Under the pieces are notes generated by a model. The model was not told where the DNA came from, searched no databases, and saw nothing but the letters and a program-made list of their open reading frames with translations. DNA of 64,000 bases. Source: Clostridia bacterium (GTDB taxonomy: Bacteria; Bacillota; Clostridia; Christensenellales; Aristaeellaceae). Shown here in pieces: positions 23,377 through 61,364 of this stretch. The stretch lies in the NCBI GenBank assembly GCA_017552535.1, contig JAFZPV010000052.1:23795-87794 (forward strand), written 5' to 3'. How positions within the stretch are numbered: position 1 is the first letter of the stretch; each line of letters begins with the position of its first letter. The position numbers were made by a program, and so were the translations under genes.

Positions 23377-23618
23377 AATTTCATACAGACGCGATGACGG
23401 AGAGAGTTTGTTCGGACGCGCAAAGAGAGACGCCGGTTGGTGTAAGGCGTTCGCGGAAAGACGGATGTGTGGCTCCCGAGCAGAAGGAAGAACGCCCATG
23501 GGTCAGTAGAACCTTCCGTCCGCCCGCGCAGGGGCGCAACAAGGGCGCGTGCAAACGCGAATTTGAGTGGTACCGCGGCAAAGCCGTCTCAAAGCATGCT
23601 TTGAGGCGTTTTTATTTT
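23377..23618 (+). ncRNA. T-box leader upstream of the XRE-cupin-ligase gene
   Basis: The roughly 240-base leader shows Stem I features (AAAGAGAGACGCC facing GGTTGGTG, closed by ACGCC/GGCGT) and CCGAGC at its base. It ends with the T-box core GAGTGGTACCGCGG (about 23564-23577). A terminator follows: CGTCTCAAAG pairs with CTTTGAGGCG (23585-23608), then a T run to 23618. This is a transcription-attenuation T-box that reads through when a cognate tRNA is uncharged. The specifier is less clear than in the second T-box. By position above the lower stem (GGAG/CTCC) it could be GUG (Val), and UGG (Trp) overlaps it. The T-box call is strong, the amino acid weak. Confidence 0.9.
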
Positions 23619-23630
23619 TCGGAGGCAGGC

Positions 23631-25946
23631 ATGAACCAGACTACGGGACTGGAGTTCAAGCTCCAGGAGATGGCGGGGCGCATAAGGGAGCTTCGCGAGA
23701 TCGAAAACCTTACCCGCGAGGAGATGGCGGAAAAGACGGGCGTGAGCCTGCAGGAATACATTGACTGCGAGGAAGGCCGCAGCGACCTGAACTTCGCGTT
23801 CATCTACCGCTGCGCGCTGGTGCTGCGGGTAGACGTGACGGACATCATCGAGGGCGCCAGCCCCCGCCTGTCCAGCTACACGGTCACCCGGCGCGGCGGA
23901 GGCCAGCGCATCGAGCAAGCCCACGGCATGGTGTATTACAACCTGGCCGCCCAGTTCAAAAACCGCATCGCGGAGCCCCTGTACGTAAACGCCGCCTATT
24001 CCGAGGAGGCGCAGTACAGGGATATCGAGCTCACCTCCCACGCCGGGCAGGAGTGCGACATCATCATCAAGGGCAAGCTCAAGGTGCAGGTGGGCACCCA
24101 TTGGGAGATTTTGTCCGAGGGCGACAGCATTTATTACGATTCCTCCACGCCCCACGGCATGATCGCCGTGGACGGGCAGGACTGCCTGTTCTACGCCATC
24201 GTCTTAAATCCCAGCGGGGAGCCGGTGCCGGAGCTGGTGGTGAACACCTCCATGACTCTGCCCAAGGAAGAGCCCAAGTCCATCAAGGCCCAGCCGCTCA
24301 CCCAGGAGCATATCTGGCAGCGCTACATCGACGTGGTGGAAGACGAGGACGGCGCCTGCAAGGCGATCTCTTTCAAAAACACCGAGCACTTCAATTTCGC
24401 CTTCGACGTGGTGGACGAAATGGCGCGGCTGTATCCCGACAAGCTCGCCATGCTGCACATCTCCCGGGACAAGGAAGAACGGCGCTTTACCTTCGCCGAC
24501 ATATCCCGCCTGTCCAACCGGGCAACCAACTATTTCAAGTCCCTGGGCATCAAAAAAGGAGACCGCGTGCTTCTGATGCTGCGCCGCCACTACCAGTTCT
24601 GGATCGCCATGATGGCGCTGAACAAGCTGGGCGCGGTAGCCATTCTGGCCACCAACCAGCTGCTCAAAAAGGACCTGGTGTACCGCTTCGACAAGGCGGG
24701 CGTGAGCGCCGTACTGTGCACCTCCACAGGCCGCTGCGCCGACGAAGTGGAGCAGGCTGCCAAGGAATGCCCCACGGTGCGCACGCTGATCATCGTGGAC
24801 GGCGAGCGCGAGGGCTGGCACAACTTCGACGAAGAGTACCGCATGTTCCGTTCTACCTACACCCCCGCGAAGGATGCGTCGCGCCCCGAGGGGGAGGACA
24901 TGCTGCTTATGGTGTTCACCTCCGGGACCACCGGCTATCCCAAGATCGCTACCCACACCCACACCTATCCGCTTGGCCATTTCTTCACCGCCCATTACTG
25001 GCATCAGGTGGACCCGAACGGCCTGCACCTCACCATTTCGGATACGGGCTGGGCCAAATCCATGTGGGGCAAGCTGTACGGCCAGTGGCTCAGCGAAGGC
25101 GCGATCTTCGTGTACGACTTTGACCGCTTCGACGCCAACGACATCCTGCCGATGTTCAAAAAGTACAATATCACCACCTTCTGCGCGCCGCCCACCATGT
25201 ACCGCTTCATGATCAAGGAAGACCTGAGCCGCTTCGATCTGAGCAGCATCCGGCACGCGTCCATCGCGGGCGAGGCGCTCAACCCGGAGGTGTTCCACCA
25301 GTTCAAGAAGGCCACAGGCCTCAGCGTGATGGAGGGCTTCGGCCAGAGCGAGACCACCGTGATGATCGGCAACACCGTGGGCATGACGCCCAAGGTCGGT
25401 TCCATGGGCAAGCCCGTTCCCCAGTACGACGTGGACATCGTGGACGCCGACGGCAAGAGCGTGGGCGTGGGCGAGACGGGCGAGATCGTGATCCGCGTGG
25501 AAGACGGACTGCCCTGCGGTCTGTGCCGCGGCTATTACGACAACGACCTGGGCAAGCCCGTGCTGGACACCCACGACGGGCTGTACCACACCGGCGACAC
25601 CGCCTGGCGCGACGAGGACGGCTACTACTGGTACGTGGGCCGCGTGGACGACGTGATCAAGTCCTCCGGCTACCGCATCGGGCCCTTCGAGATCGAAAAC
25701 GTCATCATGGAGCTGCCCTACGTGCTGGAATGCGGCGTCTCTCCCGAACCGGACGAGATCCGCGGCCAGGTGGTCAAGGCCAGCATCGTCCTCACCAAGG
25801 GCACGGAACCTACCGAGGAACTCAAAAAGGAGATCCAGACCTACGTCAAGCAGCGCACGGCGCCCTACAAATACCCCCGCATCGTGGTGTTCCGGGACGA
25901 GCTTCCCAAAACCACCAGCGGCAAGATCATCCGCAAGATGCTGTAA
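23631..25946 (+). CDS. XRE-cupin-acyl-CoA synthetase fusion under T-box control
   Basis: The 771-residue protein joins three modules. Residues about 12-70 are an XRE helix-turn-helix (IRELREIENLTREEMAEKTG), 115-200 a cupin sensor domain (GDSIYYDSSTPHGM) and 230-771 an AMP-forming acyl-CoA synthetase. The ligase has VFTSGTTGYPK (about 429-438), EGFGQSETT, YHTGDTAWRDEDGYYW, RVDDVIKSSGYRIGP and the catalytic PKTTSGKIIRK near the end. It resembles medium- and branched-chain acyl-CoA synthetases. The start at 23631 has GGAGG eight bases upstream; the open frame upstream is the T-box RNA. The XRE-cupin half alone resembles repressors that sense small acids, so the protein may be both regulator and enzyme. 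A salvage role for a carboxylic acid is inferred. Confidence 0.85.
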   Translation: MNQTTGLEFKLQEMAGRIRELREIENLTREEMAEKTGVSLQEYIDCEEGRSDLNFAFIYRCALVLRVDVTDIIEGASPRLSSYTVTRRGGGQRIEQAHGMVYYNLAAQFKNRIAEPLYVNAAYSEEAQYRDIELTSHAGQECDIIIKGKLKVQVGTHWEILSEGDSIYYDSSTPHGMIAVDGQDCLFYAIVLNPSGEPVPELVVNTSMTLPKEEPKSIKAQPLTQEHIWQRYIDVVEDEDGACKAISFKNTEHFNFAFDVVDEMARLYPDKLAMLHISRDKEERRFTFADISRLSNRATNYFKSLGIKKGDRVLLMLRRHYQFWIAMMALNKLGAVAILATNQLLKKDLVYRFDKAGVSAVLCTSTGRCADEVEQAAKECPTVRTLIIVDGEREGWHNFDEEYRMFRSTYTPAKDASRPEGEDMLLMVFTSGTTGYPKIATHTHTYPLGHFFTAHYWHQVDPNGLHLTISDTGWAKSMWGKLYGQWLSEGAIFVYDFDRFDANDILPMFKKYNITTFCAPPTMYRFMIKEDLSRFDLSSIRHASIAGEALNPEVFHQFKKATGLSVMEGFGQSETTVMIGNTVGMTPKVGSMGKPVPQYDVDIVDADGKSVGVGETGEIVIRVEDGLPCGLCRGYYDNDLGKPVLDTHDGLYHTGDTAWRDEDGYYWYVGRVDDVIKSSGYRIGPFEIENVIMELPYVLECGVSPEPDEIRGQVVKASIVLTKGTEPTEELKKEIQTYVKQRTAPYKYPRIVVFRDELPKTTSGKIIRKML

Positions 25947-57026: not shown

Positions 57027-57054
57027 GCGCACCTGCGCCTGAGAATCCCAATCA

Positions 57055-57084
57055 AAAAGGGCCTGTCCGCGGACAGGCCCTTTT
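57055..57084. terminator. Bidirectional terminator between GtrA and IorB genes
   Basis: AAAAGGGCCTGTCCG and CGGACAGGCCCTTTT form a perfect palindrome, with T runs on both strands. Confidence 0.9.
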
Positions 57085-57099
57085 GACGTTCCGGCAGTA

Positions 57100-57669
57100 T
57101 TACGCTTCCCTGCCCAGCAGGAACGCCTTTTTGTTGAGCTCTATGAATTTGGGCTTCACGAGGGCTTCGATGGCTTCCAGCCACGAGGCCTGCTCGATCT
57201 CCGGCATGAACCTGGACAGAACGCCCATCAGCACCACGTTCACGGCCTTTTCGCTGCCGGCTTCGCGGGCCAGCGAGAGCGCGTCCACGGCTTTCACACT
57301 GCATATCTCAGACAGCTTCTGCGTGGGGTTTTCCGGATATGTCATCGCGCCCGTGATCACGGTGATGGGGTAGATCTCGGCGGTATTGGTGATGAGGGTG
57401 CCGGTTTTTGAAAGCATTTCCAAGTATCTGGCGCCTTCCACCGCCTCGAAGGACAGGATAAAGTCCGCTTCACCCTTGTCCACGATGGGGGAGTAAACCT
57501 TGTCGCCGTATTTCACGTACGTCACCACGCTGCCGCCGCGCTGGGACATGCCGTGCACTTCGCTGAGCTTTACGTCCAGGCCTTTGTTTACCAGCACGCG
57601 GCCGATCAGGCGGCTGGCCAGCAGCGTTCCCTGGCCGCCGACGCCAACGATCATAATGGACTTGGTCAT
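57100..57669 (-). CDS. iorB: Indolepyruvate:ferredoxin oxidoreductase beta subunit
   Basis: The 189-residue protein is the gamma-type subunit of 2-oxoacid:ferredoxin oxidoreductases, with IMIVGVGGQGTLLASRLIG (CoA-binding region), VKLSEVHGMSQRGGSVVTYV and SRFMPEIEQASW. It pairs with IorA to interconvert aryl-pyruvates with aryl-acetyl-CoA, CO2 and reduced ferredoxin. The start at 57669 has AAGGAGG nine bases upstream; the open frame further upstream is a shadow of IorA. It lies two bases after the IorA stop. It is the last gene of the T-box-controlled operon. Confidence 0.93.
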   Translation of the reverse strand: MTKSIMIVGVGGQGTLLASRLIGRVLVNKGLDVKLSEVHGMSQRGGSVVTYVKYGDKVYSPIVDKGEADFILSFEAVEGARYLEMLSKTGTLITNTAEIYPITVITGAMTYPENPTQKLSEICSVKAVDALSLAREAGSEKAVNVVLMGVLSRFMPEIEQASWLEAIEALVKPKFIELNKKAFLLGREA

Positions 57670-57671
57670 AT

Positions 57672-59399
57672 TCACGCCTCCTTGATCGCGCCGAACGCGC
57701 AGGTCTGAGCGCACAGGCCGCAGCCCACGCACTGGGTGGCATCGATCACGGCTTTGCCGGATTCGAAGCGTATCGCGGGGCAGCCCAGCCGCATGCAGGA
57801 CCGGCAGGCGCGGCACGCGGCCGTATCCACCTTCAGGGCGGGCTTTGGCTTTACGTATTTGAGCAGCATACAGGGCCGGCGGCAGATGATCACCGAGGGC
57901 TCGTCCGCCTGCAGCTCTTCCTTGATGCAGGCTTCCAGCGCCTTCAGGTCGCCGGGGTCCACGCTGCGAACCCGGCGGATGCCTACAGCTTCGCACACCT
58001 TTTCCAGCGATACGGGCGGAACTGCCTGCATGCGCAGTGTATAGCCAGTGGCCGGGTTCTGCTGATGTCCGGTCATGCCGGTGATGGAGTTGTCCAGGAT
58101 CAGTACGGTGGAAATGCTTCGGTTGTAGGCGATGTCCGTGAGGGCGGTGATGCCGGAGTGCAGGAAGGTGGAGTCGCCGATCACGGCGACGGCCTTGTTC
58201 GCGCCTTCGGGCCGCACGGTATTGAAGCCGTGCAGCATGCTCACGCTGGCGCCCATGCATACCACGCTGTCCACGGCGGAAAGCGGCGCGGACGCGCCCA
58301 GCGTATAGCAGCCGATATCGCCCAGCACCGTGAGCTTGAGCTTGCTCAGCACGTAGAACACGCCGCGGTGGGGACAGCCCGCGCACATCACCGGAGGACG
58401 GGCGGGAACAGGCTCTTCAAAGCGGGCGGTCTCTTTCGGGGCAAGCCCCATGGCCTCGGCCACGCGGCTCTGGCTGAGCTCGCCGATAAAGCCGAATATG
58501 TCCTTGCCGCCGTCCACGCGGATGCCGGCGGCGCGCAGTTCGTTTTCAAACACGCCGTCCAGCTCTTCCACCACGTAGAGCTTTTCCACCCTGGAGGCGA
58601 AGGCGCGTATGGATTCAATGGGCATGGGAAAGCTCATGCCTACCTTGAACACGCTGGCGGAGGGGAAGGCTTCTTTCACGTATTCGTAGCAGCTGCCGGC
58701 GCATACGAAGCCGATGGAGGTGTCGTTTATCTCTGCCCGGTTCATGGGGGAAGTCTCGCTGAAGCGCGCCAGCTCCTTCAGCCTGTCTTCCACGGCGAAA
58801 TGGCGCTTGAAGCCGAAACCGGGATTCATCACGTACTTGGCCGGATTCTTCACGTATTCGTTCAGCGGTTTTTCCTGCCGGGGACCGAGCTCCACAAGGC
58901 TCTGGGAGTGCGCCACGCGCGTGCAGGTGCGCAAAAGCACCGGCGTATCGAATTTTTCGCTGATCTCGTAAGCCAGCCGGGTGAAAGCAAGGCATTCACC
59001 GCTGTCGGACGGCTCCAGCATGGGCAGCTTCGCGGCCCTGGCGTAGTGGCGGGAATCCTGCTCGTTCTGGGAGGAGTGCATGGCGGGATCGTCCGCCACG
59101 CAGATCACCACGCCGCCGTTCACGCCCGTATAGGCGGAGGTGAACAGGGGGTCCGCCGCCACGTTCAGGCCCACGTGCTTCATGGCGGTAAAGCTGCGTG
59201 CGCCTGCTAAAGACGCGCCCAGCGCGCTCTCCAGCGCTACCTTTTCGTTGGGCGCCCACTCGGCGTACATCTCGCTGAATTCGGCGGCCTCTTCCGTGAT
59301 CTCGGTGCTGGGCGTGCCGGGATAGGAGGATATGTATTTTACGCCCGCCTCATACAGTCCTCGCGCTATGGCTTTGTTGCCAAGCATCAGTTCCTTCAT
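57672..59399 (-). CDS. iorA: Indolepyruvate:ferredoxin oxidoreductase alpha subunit
   Basis: The 575-residue enzyme has the IorA layout: KYISSYPGTPSTEITEEAA (pyrimidine-binding start), PNEKVALESALGASLAGARS, MCAGCPHRGVFY, and the TPP block VIGDSTFLHSGITALTD with LILDNSITGMTGHQQNP. The C-terminal ferredoxin-like domain has two 4Fe-4S clusters (Cys529/532/535/540 and Cys557/560/563/567). It normally oxidises indole-, phenyl- or 4-hydroxyphenylpyruvate to the CoA ester, giving reduced ferredoxin, but the reaction is reversible. The operon starts with a T-box of tyrosine type, so a biosynthetic direction is plausible. The gene has its expected length and all motifs are intact. Confidence 0.94.
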   Translation of the reverse strand: MKELMLGNKAIARGLYEAGVKYISSYPGTPSTEITEEAAEFSEMYAEWAPNEKVALESALGASLAGARSFTAMKHVGLNVAADPLFTSAYTGVNGGVVICVADDPAMHSSQNEQDSRHYARAAKLPMLEPSDSGECLAFTRLAYEISEKFDTPVLLRTCTRVAHSQSLVELGPRQEKPLNEYVKNPAKYVMNPGFGFKRHFAVEDRLKELARFSETSPMNRAEINDTSIGFVCAGSCYEYVKEAFPSASVFKVGMSFPMPIESIRAFASRVEKLYVVEELDGVFENELRAAGIRVDGGKDIFGFIGELSQSRVAEAMGLAPKETARFEEPVPARPPVMCAGCPHRGVFYVLSKLKLTVLGDIGCYTLGASAPLSAVDSVVCMGASVSMLHGFNTVRPEGANKAVAVIGDSTFLHSGITALTDIAYNRSISTVLILDNSITGMTGHQQNPATGYTLRMQAVPPVSLEKVCEAVGIRRVRSVDPGDLKALEACIKEELQADEPSVIICRRPCMLLKYVKPKPALKVDTAACRACRSCMRLGCPAIRFESGKAVIDATQCVGCGLCAQTCAFGAIKEA

Positions 59400-59417
59400 G
59401 GTCTTGTCCTGCCTTTT

Positions 59418-61052
59418 TTAGCCTGTGATCTGTGTCTTTACCACGCTCTCGCCGCAGTACATCTGGCGAAGCTTGGGCTTTTCAATCTTGCCGGTGGGAT
59501 TGCGGGGAACCTTGTTGAAGATGATCCTGCGGGGGCGCTTGTAGCGCGGCAGCTCCATGCAGAAGTCGTTTACCTCCTGCTCGGTGAGCTCCATGCCCTC
59601 GCGGGGCTCGATGATGGCCGCGGCGATCTCGCCCAGGCGCGCGTCGGGCATGCCGATCACGGCCACGTCCTTGATCTTCGGGTTCTGGCGGAGGAAGTCT
59701 TCGATCTGTACGGGATAGAGGTTTTCGCCGCCGGTGATGATGACGTCCTTTTTGCGGTCCACCAGAAAGATGAAGCCGTCTTCGTCCTGCATGGCCATAT
59801 CGCCCGTGAACAGCCAGCCGTCCTGAAGCACTTCCTGAGTAGCCTTCTCGTCGTGGTAGTAGCAGGTCATCACGCCCGGGCCCTTTACGGCCAGTTCGCC
59901 CACGTCGCCCTGCTTCACGTCCTGCCGGTTCTCGTCCACGATGCGCACCTGCCAGCCGTAACCCGCCACGCCGATGGCGCCCACCTTATGGATGTTCTCC
60001 ACGCCCAGATGCACGCAGCCGGGGCCGATGGATTCGCTCAGGCCGTAGTTGGTATCGTACTGGTGATTCGGGAACACGTTTTTCCACCTCTTGATGAGGG
60101 AGGGCGGCACGGGCTGGGCGCCGATATGCATCAGGCGCCAGTGGCTTAAGTCGTAGTCCTGCAAGTTTACCTTGCCTGAATCGATGGCGTCCAGGATGTC
60201 CTGCGCCCAGGGCACCAGCAGCCACACGATGGAGCATTTCTCTTCCGACGCGGCGCTCAGGATCGTGGCGGGCTTTACGCCCGTGAGCAGCACCGCCTTG
60301 GAGCCGGAGATCAGCGAGCCGAACCAGTGCATCTTGGCGCCTGTGTGATACAGCGGGGGGATGCACAAAAACACGTCGTCGTGGGTCTGGCCGTGATGCG
60401 CCTGCTCCACCCGGGCGGAGTGCATCAGGCTCATGTGCCTGTGCAGTATCGCCTTGGGGAAGCCCGTGGTGCCGGAGGAAAAGTATATGGCGGCATAGTC
60501 TTCGTCGGTGAGGGGCACGTTCGGGTCTTCGCTGGATTCGTTGGCCACCAGATGCACGTAGTTCTCAGCGAATACCGGGCAGCCGTCTCCGGCGTAAAAC
60601 AGCAGCTTGACCCGCGGGATCTTTTCGGCGATCTCCTCGATGCGGCCGATAAATTCATAGCCGAAGAACAGCGCGTCCACGTCCGCCAGCTCCAGGCAGT
60701 AGCGGATCTCTTCGGCGGTATAGCGGAAATTGAGCGGCACGGCCAGCGCGCCGGATTTGAGGATGCCGAAGTAGATCGGCAGCCACTCGATGCCGTTCAT
60801 CATCAGGATGGCGACCTTGTCGCCCTTTTTGATGCCCCGGCTCATCAGAAGGTTTGCGCAGCGGTTGGCCTTTTCGTCGAACACGCGCCAGGTGATCTCC
60901 CGGCGGAAAGCGCGGCCCAGGGGCCGTTCGATGAGTTCATATTCCTTCCAGGTGGTGCGGTGAATCTCCTTCACTTCGGGATTCAGTTCCACCAGCGCTA
61001 CTTCGTTCGGGTATTTGCGGGCGTTGTCTCTGAGCAGGTCGGTTATGGGCAT
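59418..61052 (-). CDS. AMP-forming acid:CoA ligase, likely aryl-acid
   Basis: The 544-residue ligase has the adenylation motifs YFSSGTTGFPKAILHRH (residues 190-206), YGLSESIGPGC, WLFTGDMAMQDEDGFI, KKDVIITGGENLYPVQIE and the catalytic PRNPTGKIEKPKL near the end. It activates a carboxylic acid to acyl-AMP and then acyl-CoA in the cytoplasm. It lies directly upstream of iorA (18-base gap) behind the T-box. The neighbourhood strongly suggests an arylacetate such as 4-hydroxyphenylacetate or phenylacetate as substrate, but the sequence alone resembles general medium-chain/aryl ligases. The ribosome site is AAAGGAATGA. Confidence 0.85.
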   Translation of the reverse strand: MPITDLLRDNARKYPNEVALVELNPEVKEIHRTTWKEYELIERPLGRAFRREITWRVFDEKANRCANLLMSRGIKKGDKVAILMMNGIEWLPIYFGILKSGALAVPLNFRYTAEEIRYCLELADVDALFFGYEFIGRIEEIAEKIPRVKLLFYAGDGCPVFAENYVHLVANESSEDPNVPLTDEDYAAIYFSSGTTGFPKAILHRHMSLMHSARVEQAHHGQTHDDVFLCIPPLYHTGAKMHWFGSLISGSKAVLLTGVKPATILSAASEEKCSIVWLLVPWAQDILDAIDSGKVNLQDYDLSHWRLMHIGAQPVPPSLIKRWKNVFPNHQYDTNYGLSESIGPGCVHLGVENIHKVGAIGVAGYGWQVRIVDENRQDVKQGDVGELAVKGPGVMTCYYHDEKATQEVLQDGWLFTGDMAMQDEDGFIFLVDRKKDVIITGGENLYPVQIEDFLRQNPKIKDVAVIGMPDARLGEIAAAIIEPREGMELTEQEVNDFCMELPRYKRPRRIIFNKVPRNPTGKIEKPKLRQMYCGESVVKTQITG

Positions 61053-61079
61053 AAGCGGTCATTCCTTTCAGATTATTGT

Positions 61080-61329
61080 AAAAAAAGCCCCCTCGCGCGT
61101 GCGAGAGGGCGAACGTATCGCGGTACCACCTCTGTTCGCCGCCTTGTTCAGGCGGCCTCAGCGGGCAAAAGCCCCAGCGCTGTAACGGGCGCTCCCGACA
61201 AGGCCTACTGTCGTTTCAGCCTGTGGCTCGCGGAATGTATTCGCCCCGGCCCGTCTGCCGCCTCGCACCGCCCGGCGGTTCTCTGAAAAACGTACGGCAG
61301 GGGTTACTTGTTTCCGGTCATCGCGTGAT
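61080..61329 (-). ncRNA. Tyrosine-type T-box leader of the ligase-iorA-iorB operon
   Basis: The minus-strand leader has Stem I with AGTAA on one side and GAA-UAC-A on the other, with UAC at 61237-61239, then CCGCGAGC below. The lower stem GGAA/TTCC and the upper stem CCCC-CCGT/ACGG-GGGG agree with this specifier loop. The distal loop pair AGAGAACCGCC/GGGCGGTG is present. The T-box core GGTGGTACCGCG is at 61119-61130. The terminator is GCCCTCTCGC.../...GCGAGGGGGC (61087-61110) with a seven-T run. UAC reads tRNA-Tyr. The leader should permit transcription when Tyr-tRNA is uncharged. Confidence 0.95.
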
Positions 61330-61335
61330 GAAGAG

Positions 61336-61364
61336 ATTTTAGCACTTTAATGGGTAAAAGTCAA
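61336..61364 (-). promoter_or_regulatory. Promoter of the Tyr T-box operon
   Basis: Minus-strand TTGACT (61359-61364) and TAAAAT (61336-61341), 17-base spacing, just upstream of the leader. Confidence 0.8.

Follow-up and report, generated by a model that had tools for sequence, protein, structure and literature searches.

We analysed a 64,000-nucleotide stretch of a Clostridia bacterium of the Aristaeellaceae (GCA_017552535.1, contig JAFZPV010000052.1, positions 23,795-87,794), referred to here as the window, in which a three-gene operon on the minus strand is preceded by a T-box leader with a tyrosine specifier codon. In the direction of transcription the locus opens with a promoter (61336..61364), a consensus match of TTGACT-17-TAAAAT with an extended -10 TG that agrees at 10 of 12 positions. 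The leader that follows (61102..61330) matched the T-box model RF00230 from model position 1 to 219 of 219 (cmscan score 108 bits, E=6.5e-23; gathering score 93). Its specifier loop reads GAA-UAC-A, with the tyrosine codon UAC at 61237..61239 followed by A61236, and its T-box bulge UGGU (61125..61128) would pair with the ACCA acceptor end. An intrinsic terminator, a 10-bp stem and then T7 (61087..61110), stands before the start codon of the first gene, which encodes an AMP-forming acid:coenzyme A (CoA) ligase of 544 amino acids (59418..61052). It is followed by iorA (57672..59399) and iorB (57100..57669), encoding the alpha and beta subunits of indolepyruvate:ferredoxin oxidoreductase (IOR). 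Past iorB, the palindrome GGGCCTGTCCGCGGACAGGCCC (57080-57059) and then TTTTT on the minus strand (together 57054..57080) were recognised by eye as a likely terminator; having no loop, the palindrome was not listed by the terminator scan.

T-boxes raise expression when their tRNA is uncharged. The leader was assigned to this class by its score above the gathering value, its readable specifier codon, its UGGN bulge and its terminator ahead of the start codon. A sequence-only reading of the window had placed a promoter, a T-box, a terminator and a UAC specifier ahead of ligase-iorA-iorB, and this arrangement was confirmed by cmscan and by reading of the individual sites. That reading had also proposed folding the leader: here the covariance model agreed, and free-energy folding of the leader alone was unremarkable and not decisive (z=-1.52), adding no support. 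The T-box assignment is therefore drawn from the covariance model and from conservation rather than from folding energy.

The window genome contained 11 RF00230 matches in 2.39 Mb, three of them above the gathering score, and these allowed the reading of specifiers to be calibrated. Eight other T-boxes precede genes recognised by eye as encoding the Leu, Phe, Val, Thr, Trp, Ile and Asp tRNA synthetases and a trpB-like protein; read with the gene known, their loops hold CUC, UUC, GUC, ACC, UGG, AUC, GAC and UGG, respectively, a fitting codon in 8/8. An automatic rule that takes the codon lying one base ahead of the stem was correct for five of the eight, the stem having been wrongly placed in L007, L008 and L011. 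For a ninth T-box, before a 2-isopropylmalate-synthase-like gene, the eye and the rule agreed on CUC. In published work the specifier is located 2-4 bases short of the loop end, with UAC in 99% of tyrosine T-boxes (PMC7778990), and specifiers are reported to match gene function in every case where that function was verified (PMC2494555).

Conservation was examined in a sample of 150 genomes of the window's family, 87 of which contained a close relative of the ligase (E ≤ 1e-100). The 92 ligase matches listed comprised the window's own, a further 80 and then 6 loci that were examined (the 6 being G126 and five fragments at contig edges in which the start of the gene is preserved), and five fragments without a gene start that were excluded, their genomes being counted as lacking the T-box unless another locus carried one. 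A ligase was called T-box-linked when a covariance-model match lay upstream on the same strand within 2.3 kb; motif scans overlooked some T-boxes, and the covariance model was used in their place. The custom model R1 was built from 25 ligase-linked leaders, among them that of the window, which scores 186.6 bits with it. A T-box was found upstream of 42 of the 87 orthologous ligase loci (38 among the 81 examined first and 4 among the 6 added later); 25 of the 42 were found by construction of the model and the other 17 independently. Against a background of 11 matches per 2.39 Mb, this is more than expected by chance.

The specifiers of the 42 ligase-linked T-boxes were UAC in 41 and UUC (Phe) in one, an aromatic codon in the window and in its relatives alike. 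For the first 38 T-boxes, the automatic rule returned 25 UAC and the single UUC. Its stem was misplaced or missing in the remaining 12 (L152, L154, L157, L164, L165, L169, L170, L174, L194, L227, L228 and L231), for which UAC was taken by eye from the alignment, where it stands within GAAUAC. The T-box-linked ligases reach down to approximately 65% identity. On a tree of 80 ligases, from which L211 was omitted for its short translation, there are 10 changes of the T-box label, of which well-supported branches force 9. The T-box was thus gained, lost or moved repeatedly, and the codon was nonetheless kept. The sole phenylalanine-codon T-box before an orthologous ligase (L210, genome G033) has a bulge that reads UGGC; tRNA-Phe has an A discriminator with which this bulge would not pair, suggesting that its specificity is in the course of changing or that it reads a different tRNA. 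Outside the family sample, a search with iorA kept 80 loci from 595 relatives, 31 of which have a ligase homologue of at least 60% identity nearby (L032, with a homologue at 21%, was not counted). Only three of these iorA loci had a linked T-box, all with a phenylalanine codon, and the tyrosine form was confined to the family sample.

The ligase matched PF00501 (246 bits) and PF13193 (47 bits), and its nearest NCBIfam family was PRK06187, below the cut-off. The PaaK equivalog TIGR02155 was not among the best 25 of 107 NCBIfam matches to the ligase and, judged by these matches, the protein is a member of another branch of the AMP-forming superfamily than PaaK. Both IOR subunits exceeded curated equivalog cut-offs (IorA, 686.5 bits with TIGR03336, cut-off 650.9; IorB, 260.7 bits with NF005325, cut-off 230). 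IORs are reversible enzymes with aryl-2-oxo acids as substrates, and AMP-forming ligases drive acyl-CoA formation. The operon of the window contains no kinase, phosphotransacylase or ADP-forming ligase, and an AMP-forming ligase that spends ATP fits synthesis.

The gene content around the ligase was surveyed at 81 loci, 38 of them with a T-box. Neighbouring genes were identified by tblastn, greedy calling of open reading frames having given antisense artefacts in GC-rich loci; their family names rest on NCBIfam matches that all lie below the curated cut-offs, and the ACT label was given by eye without an NCBIfam match. At 22 of the 38 T-box loci iorA follows the ligase. Transporter genes of two kinds were found at 11 of the 38: an OFA-type gene of the major facilitator superfamily (MFS), nearest to L-lactate/oxalate-formate MFS proteins, between T-box and ligase at three loci, and a sodium:solute symporter gene (PutP/SSS) before or after the ligase or past iorB at eight. 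At four loci, all in one genus other than that of the window, a class-I-type aminotransferase gene (MocR-type match) lies 3′ of iorB, and PF02153, the family by which tyrA was searched, was unmatched in all five sampled genomes of that genus. Ligase and IOR thus stand together behind the T-box in the window, and the aminotransferase joins the operon only in one other genus. A paaK gene with an ACT-domain gene lies directly behind the ligase at 9 of the 38 loci and behind iorAB at one more. At loci L158-L167 except L160 (genera g17 and g18) the order is tyrosine T-box, ligase, paaK, ACT-domain gene, with iorAB absent from the fetched stretch, so that two ligases share one tyrosine switch. Genome G098 (L153, L201, L122) contains two ligase-iorAB operons, one behind a tyrosine T-box and one for which no T-box was found, and a third IOR alpha gene.

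The aromatic biosynthesis operon of the window genome lacks tyrA at the place where a congener carries it. Its order is aroF-aroB-aroA-aroC-pheA, with 49 bases from the aroF stop to the aroB start, whereas that of congener G038 is aroF-tyrA-aroB-aroA-aroC-pheA-aroE-aroQ. The tyrA gene of G038 was identified by PF02153 and PF20463, aroF and aroB through Pfam matches of the window-genome copies, and aroC and pheA by family searches; aroA, aroE and aroQ were named by eye. The gap between the aroF and aroB matches is 64 bases in the window genome, 47 in the congener G098 (97% complete) and 19 in the congener G073, and a search with PF02153 gave no match in any of the three. Chorismate synthase and prephenate dehydratase are present in all three; their tyrosine branch therefore seems to be missing, while chorismate and phenylalanine should be made. 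G038 holds both tyrA and the T-box operon, so that the operon and the usual route to tyrosine can occur together. In genus g4 (G003, G051, G079, G101, G121) PF02153 was unmatched in 5/5 genomes and PF00800 in 4/5, and G060, which has a T-box ligase, gave no match to chorismate synthase or PF02153.

Among the 124 family genomes with chorismate synthase, tyrA went undetected in 17 of the 38 that have a T-box ligase and in 12 of the 86 that do not (Fisher p=0.0004, uncorrected for phylogeny; p=0.00014 if five weak PF02153 hits are counted as tyrA). When pheA was required as well, the proportions were 10/31 and 5/74 (p=0.0015). As a control, absence of pheA was not linked to the T-box ligase in the same genomes (7/38 versus 12/86, p=0.59). 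Because many of the genomes are incomplete and related to one another, these statistics are support rather than proof.

The window carries a second T-box on the plus strand (23387..23591; 77.6 bits with R1 and 80.7 with RF00230, below the gathering score of 93), with the valine specifier GUG, ahead of a gene for a helix-turn-helix (HTH)-cupin-AMP-binding acyl-CoA ligase of 771 amino acids (23631..25946, plus strand). A tryptophan (UGG) reading of this specifier was dropped, as orthologous T-boxes read GUA, GUC or GUG at that place. The nearest curated family of the ligase is MbcS (NF047394, 426 bits, cut-off 850). MbcS of Staphylococcus aureus is reportedly a branched short-chain acyl-CoA synthetase that supports branched-chain fatty acids; the relatives found here stand behind valine and isoleucine T-boxes. 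Relatives of the HTH-cupin ligase, near and distant, occur in 88 of the 150 family genomes (E ≤ 1e-120). Among the best 30 loci, 29 have an upstream T-box, with a valine codon in 26 (GUA 12, GUC 10, GUG 4) and an isoleucine codon in three, and the synonymous third letters point to valine specificity. Of 20 stretches chosen for second copies 18 hold one; 17 of these have a full T-box, in every case with AUC (Ile), and in L287 the second copy has only a fragment of a T-box match. The valine and isoleucine specifiers were read partly by eye. CUC T-boxes beside these ligases (L277 14773, L276 3198, L271 7151, L284 2738) and at L001 of G000 were rejected as salvage candidates: they precede genes that by eye resemble 2-isopropylmalate synthase, and look like ordinary leucine control.

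A phenylalanine counterpart was found for paaK: a UUC T-box lies directly before it in five genomes (L047, L061/L293, L294, L296, L297). These genomes seem not to belong to the family of the window, as the sample searched for PaaK and the family sample have no genome in common. In a survey of PaaK, 59 of 100 genomes matched and 4 of 30 loci had a T-box directly upstream; 12 longer stretches from the same set gave no T-box. At L061 (7374-9018) and L047 (7366-8994) the phenylalanine T-box and paaK lie just past iorB, and at L048 (4274-5040) a UUC T-box precedes a small gene that by eye is TrpR/YerC-like, followed by iorAB, with the ligase gene divergent. Taken across these families, ligase type and T-box amino acid are seen at the sequence level to vary together (the window ligase with tyrosine, PaaK with phenylalanine, MbcS-like ligases with valine and isoleucine), the exception being the nine tyrosine operons with paaK. 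Such matching is predicted by salvage through reductive carboxylation and not by catabolism.

We consider it very likely that ligase-iorA-iorB is a tyrosine-responsive salvage operon in which IorAB is used in the reductive, anabolic direction. This had been the proposal of the sequence-only reading, and it gained support from the UAC codon in 41/42 leaders, the tyrA gap, the genes added to the operon in relatives and the matching parallel T-boxes. According to the model, when tyrosine is short, uncharged tRNA-Tyr would pair with both specifier (UAC) and bulge (UGGU), the antiterminator would form, and ligase-iorA-iorB would be transcribed. The ligase would spend ATP to convert an arylacetate, most likely 4-hydroxyphenylacetate from amino-acid-fermenting neighbours, into its CoA thioester, which IorAB would carboxylate with reduced ferredoxin and CO2 to 4-hydroxyphenylpyruvate. 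An aminotransferase, operon-encoded in one genus only, would then yield tyrosine, and in the window organism this salvage would stand in for the missing prephenate dehydrogenase. We infer 4-hydroxyphenylacetate as the acid, the reductive direction of IorAB in the cell, the response to tRNA and the use of the aminotransferase.

Several observations weigh against this interpretation. The relatives of the ligase with solved structures are fatty-acyl and various aryl ligases of moderate similarity and do not fix the acid. The fetched stretch lacks iorA at 16 of the 38 T-box loci, an IOR alpha gene being found elsewhere in 15 of these 16 genomes (the exception is G129). At the nine loci where paaK follows the ligase under one tyrosine T-box, the picture of one ligase for one acid is blurred. 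The covariance model found no T-box at 45 of the 87 orthologous ligase loci, one of which (L229) has only approximately 200 bases upstream. The window genome is 77% complete. In the congener G118 (94% complete) PF02153 was unmatched and no ligase reached the threshold, so that tyrA can be missing where the operon is missing too. The association with tyrA absence is weak over all 150 genomes (19/41 versus 31/109, p=0.05) and when counted by genus gives 10/18 versus 6/24 (p=0.06). Finally, 22 of the 41 genomes with a T-box ligase have tyrA, and the 12 of 86 chorismate-synthase genomes noted above lack it without having a T-box ligase; the operon is thus neither the sole route everywhere nor present wherever tyrA is gone.

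A wider form of salvage seems rather unlikely to us, in which the ligase would accept phenylacetate, indoleacetate or several arylacetates, IorAB would act on several 2-oxo acids, and tyrosine would be the signal for a general shortage of aromatic amino acids. This alternative overlaps with the tyrosine-salvage interpretation, and the likelihoods assigned to the two are not meant to sum to one. It draws on the breadth of IORs in known cases (described in a passage of PMC13285125), on paaK in the same tyrosine operon at 9/38 loci and on the one orthologous ligase with a phenylalanine specifier (L210). However, the specifier is tyrosine in 41/42; the operon goes with absence of tyrA and not of pheA, which the window genome keeps; and PaaK has a phenylalanine T-box of its own in five other genomes.

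Far less probable is a catabolic role, in which oxidation of arylpyruvates to arylacetates would provide reduced ferredoxin and energy, the T-box being incidental. Precedents exist, since IOR serves amino acid fermentation in Pyrococcus and helps make phenylacetate from phenylalanine in Bacteroides thetaiotaomicron (both as cited in PMC13285125). Against these stand the absence of tyrA from the aro operon, a T-box that opens on tyrosine starvation, when breakdown of tyrosine would be harmful, and an AMP-forming ligase whose operon encodes neither a kinase nor a phosphotransacylase nor an ADP-forming ligase. That the T-box is a chance acquisition, or a duplicate of one from a tRNA synthetase gene, and has no functional tie to the operon is scarcely credible: T-boxes do move and switch specificity (according to PMC2494555) and the label changes repeatedly on the ligase tree, but drift explains poorly why UAC was kept before the same ligase in 41/42 cases despite this gain and loss.

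The tyrosine-salvage interpretation has parallels in known systems. Methanococcus maripaludis converts aryl acids to aromatic amino acids (Porat et al., cited in PMC4162585), a route alike in its aryl-acid precursors and in an indolepyruvate oxidoreductase run biosynthetically; that route is archaeal, whereas the system of the window is bacterial and combines a tyrosine-specific T-box with a tyrA gap. Rumen bacteria carboxylate isovalerate to leucine, isobutyrate to valine and 2-methylbutyrate to isoleucine (PMC7356843), and phenylacetate to phenylalanine (Allison 1965, referenced in PMC7356843); studies of such rebuilding by rumen anaerobes go back to the 1960s. The chemistry and the type of habitat are the same, and the valine, isoleucine and phenylalanine T-box ligases described here match three of the four acids; the passage of PMC7356843 concerned deals with amino acid labelling and acid proportions, while the present work offers candidate genes and their control. 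In Bacteroides, IOR adjoins an AMP-forming arylacetate-CoA ligase, and a biosynthetic role was suggested in 2026 (PMC13285125) with the same argument from an AMP-forming ligase to biosynthesis. Bacteroides belongs to another phylum, the likeness is one of gene pair, and the word T-box does not occur in the main text of that paper.

The HpdDEFG-HpdJ-HpdK system of Clostridium scatologenes, an oxidative tyrosine pathway (described in PMC13285125), likewise interconverts 4-hydroxyphenylpyruvate and 4-hydroxyphenylacetyl-CoA, but does so in the opposite direction, with a VOR-like enzyme and with a phosphotransferase and a kinase in place of the ligase. In the Bacillus cereus group, tyrosine T-boxes are reported on a tyrosine operon and on phenylalanine-4-hydroxylase (PMC2494555), so that a T-box governs a tyrosine-making enzyme there too, by hydroxylation of phenylalanine rather than by reductive carboxylation. 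The chemistry is therefore old, known from rumen bacteria and methanogens. The literature searched gave no account of IorAB or acid:CoA ligases under the control of a T-box, although T-box surveys of 2008-2009 may mention it, and likewise none of the tyrA gap.

Switch and enzyme are thus of known kinds, and what is new is the use of both in a lineage where they may perhaps have taken over tyrosine synthesis. The results suggest that a gut-type bacterium rebuilds tyrosine from a waste acid of other microbes. We think it reasonably likely, with less confidence than for the tyrosine operon itself, that gut and rumen Firmicutes have a general T-box salvage regulon, in which each fermentation acid would have its own ATP-spending CoA ligase (4-hydroxyphenylacetate for tyrosine, phenylacetate for phenylalanine, isobutyrate for valine, 2-methylbutyrate for isoleucine), starvation for the matching amino acid would be the switch, and reductive carboxylases driven by ferredoxin would complete the route; in lineages without tyrA, such as that of the window, the system would have taken the place of the final step in making tyrosine. 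T-box specifiers give candidate genes, substrates and direction at once, and in these lineages IorAB would be re-annotated as biosynthetic instead of degradative. The lack of tyrA would then mean dependence on a cross-fed acid rather than plain tyrosine auxotrophy, which bears on cross-feeding in the gut and on the consumers of 4-hydroxyphenylacetate, the precursor of p-cresol. If the general reading is true, bacteria without tyrA would live on the Stickland waste of others.

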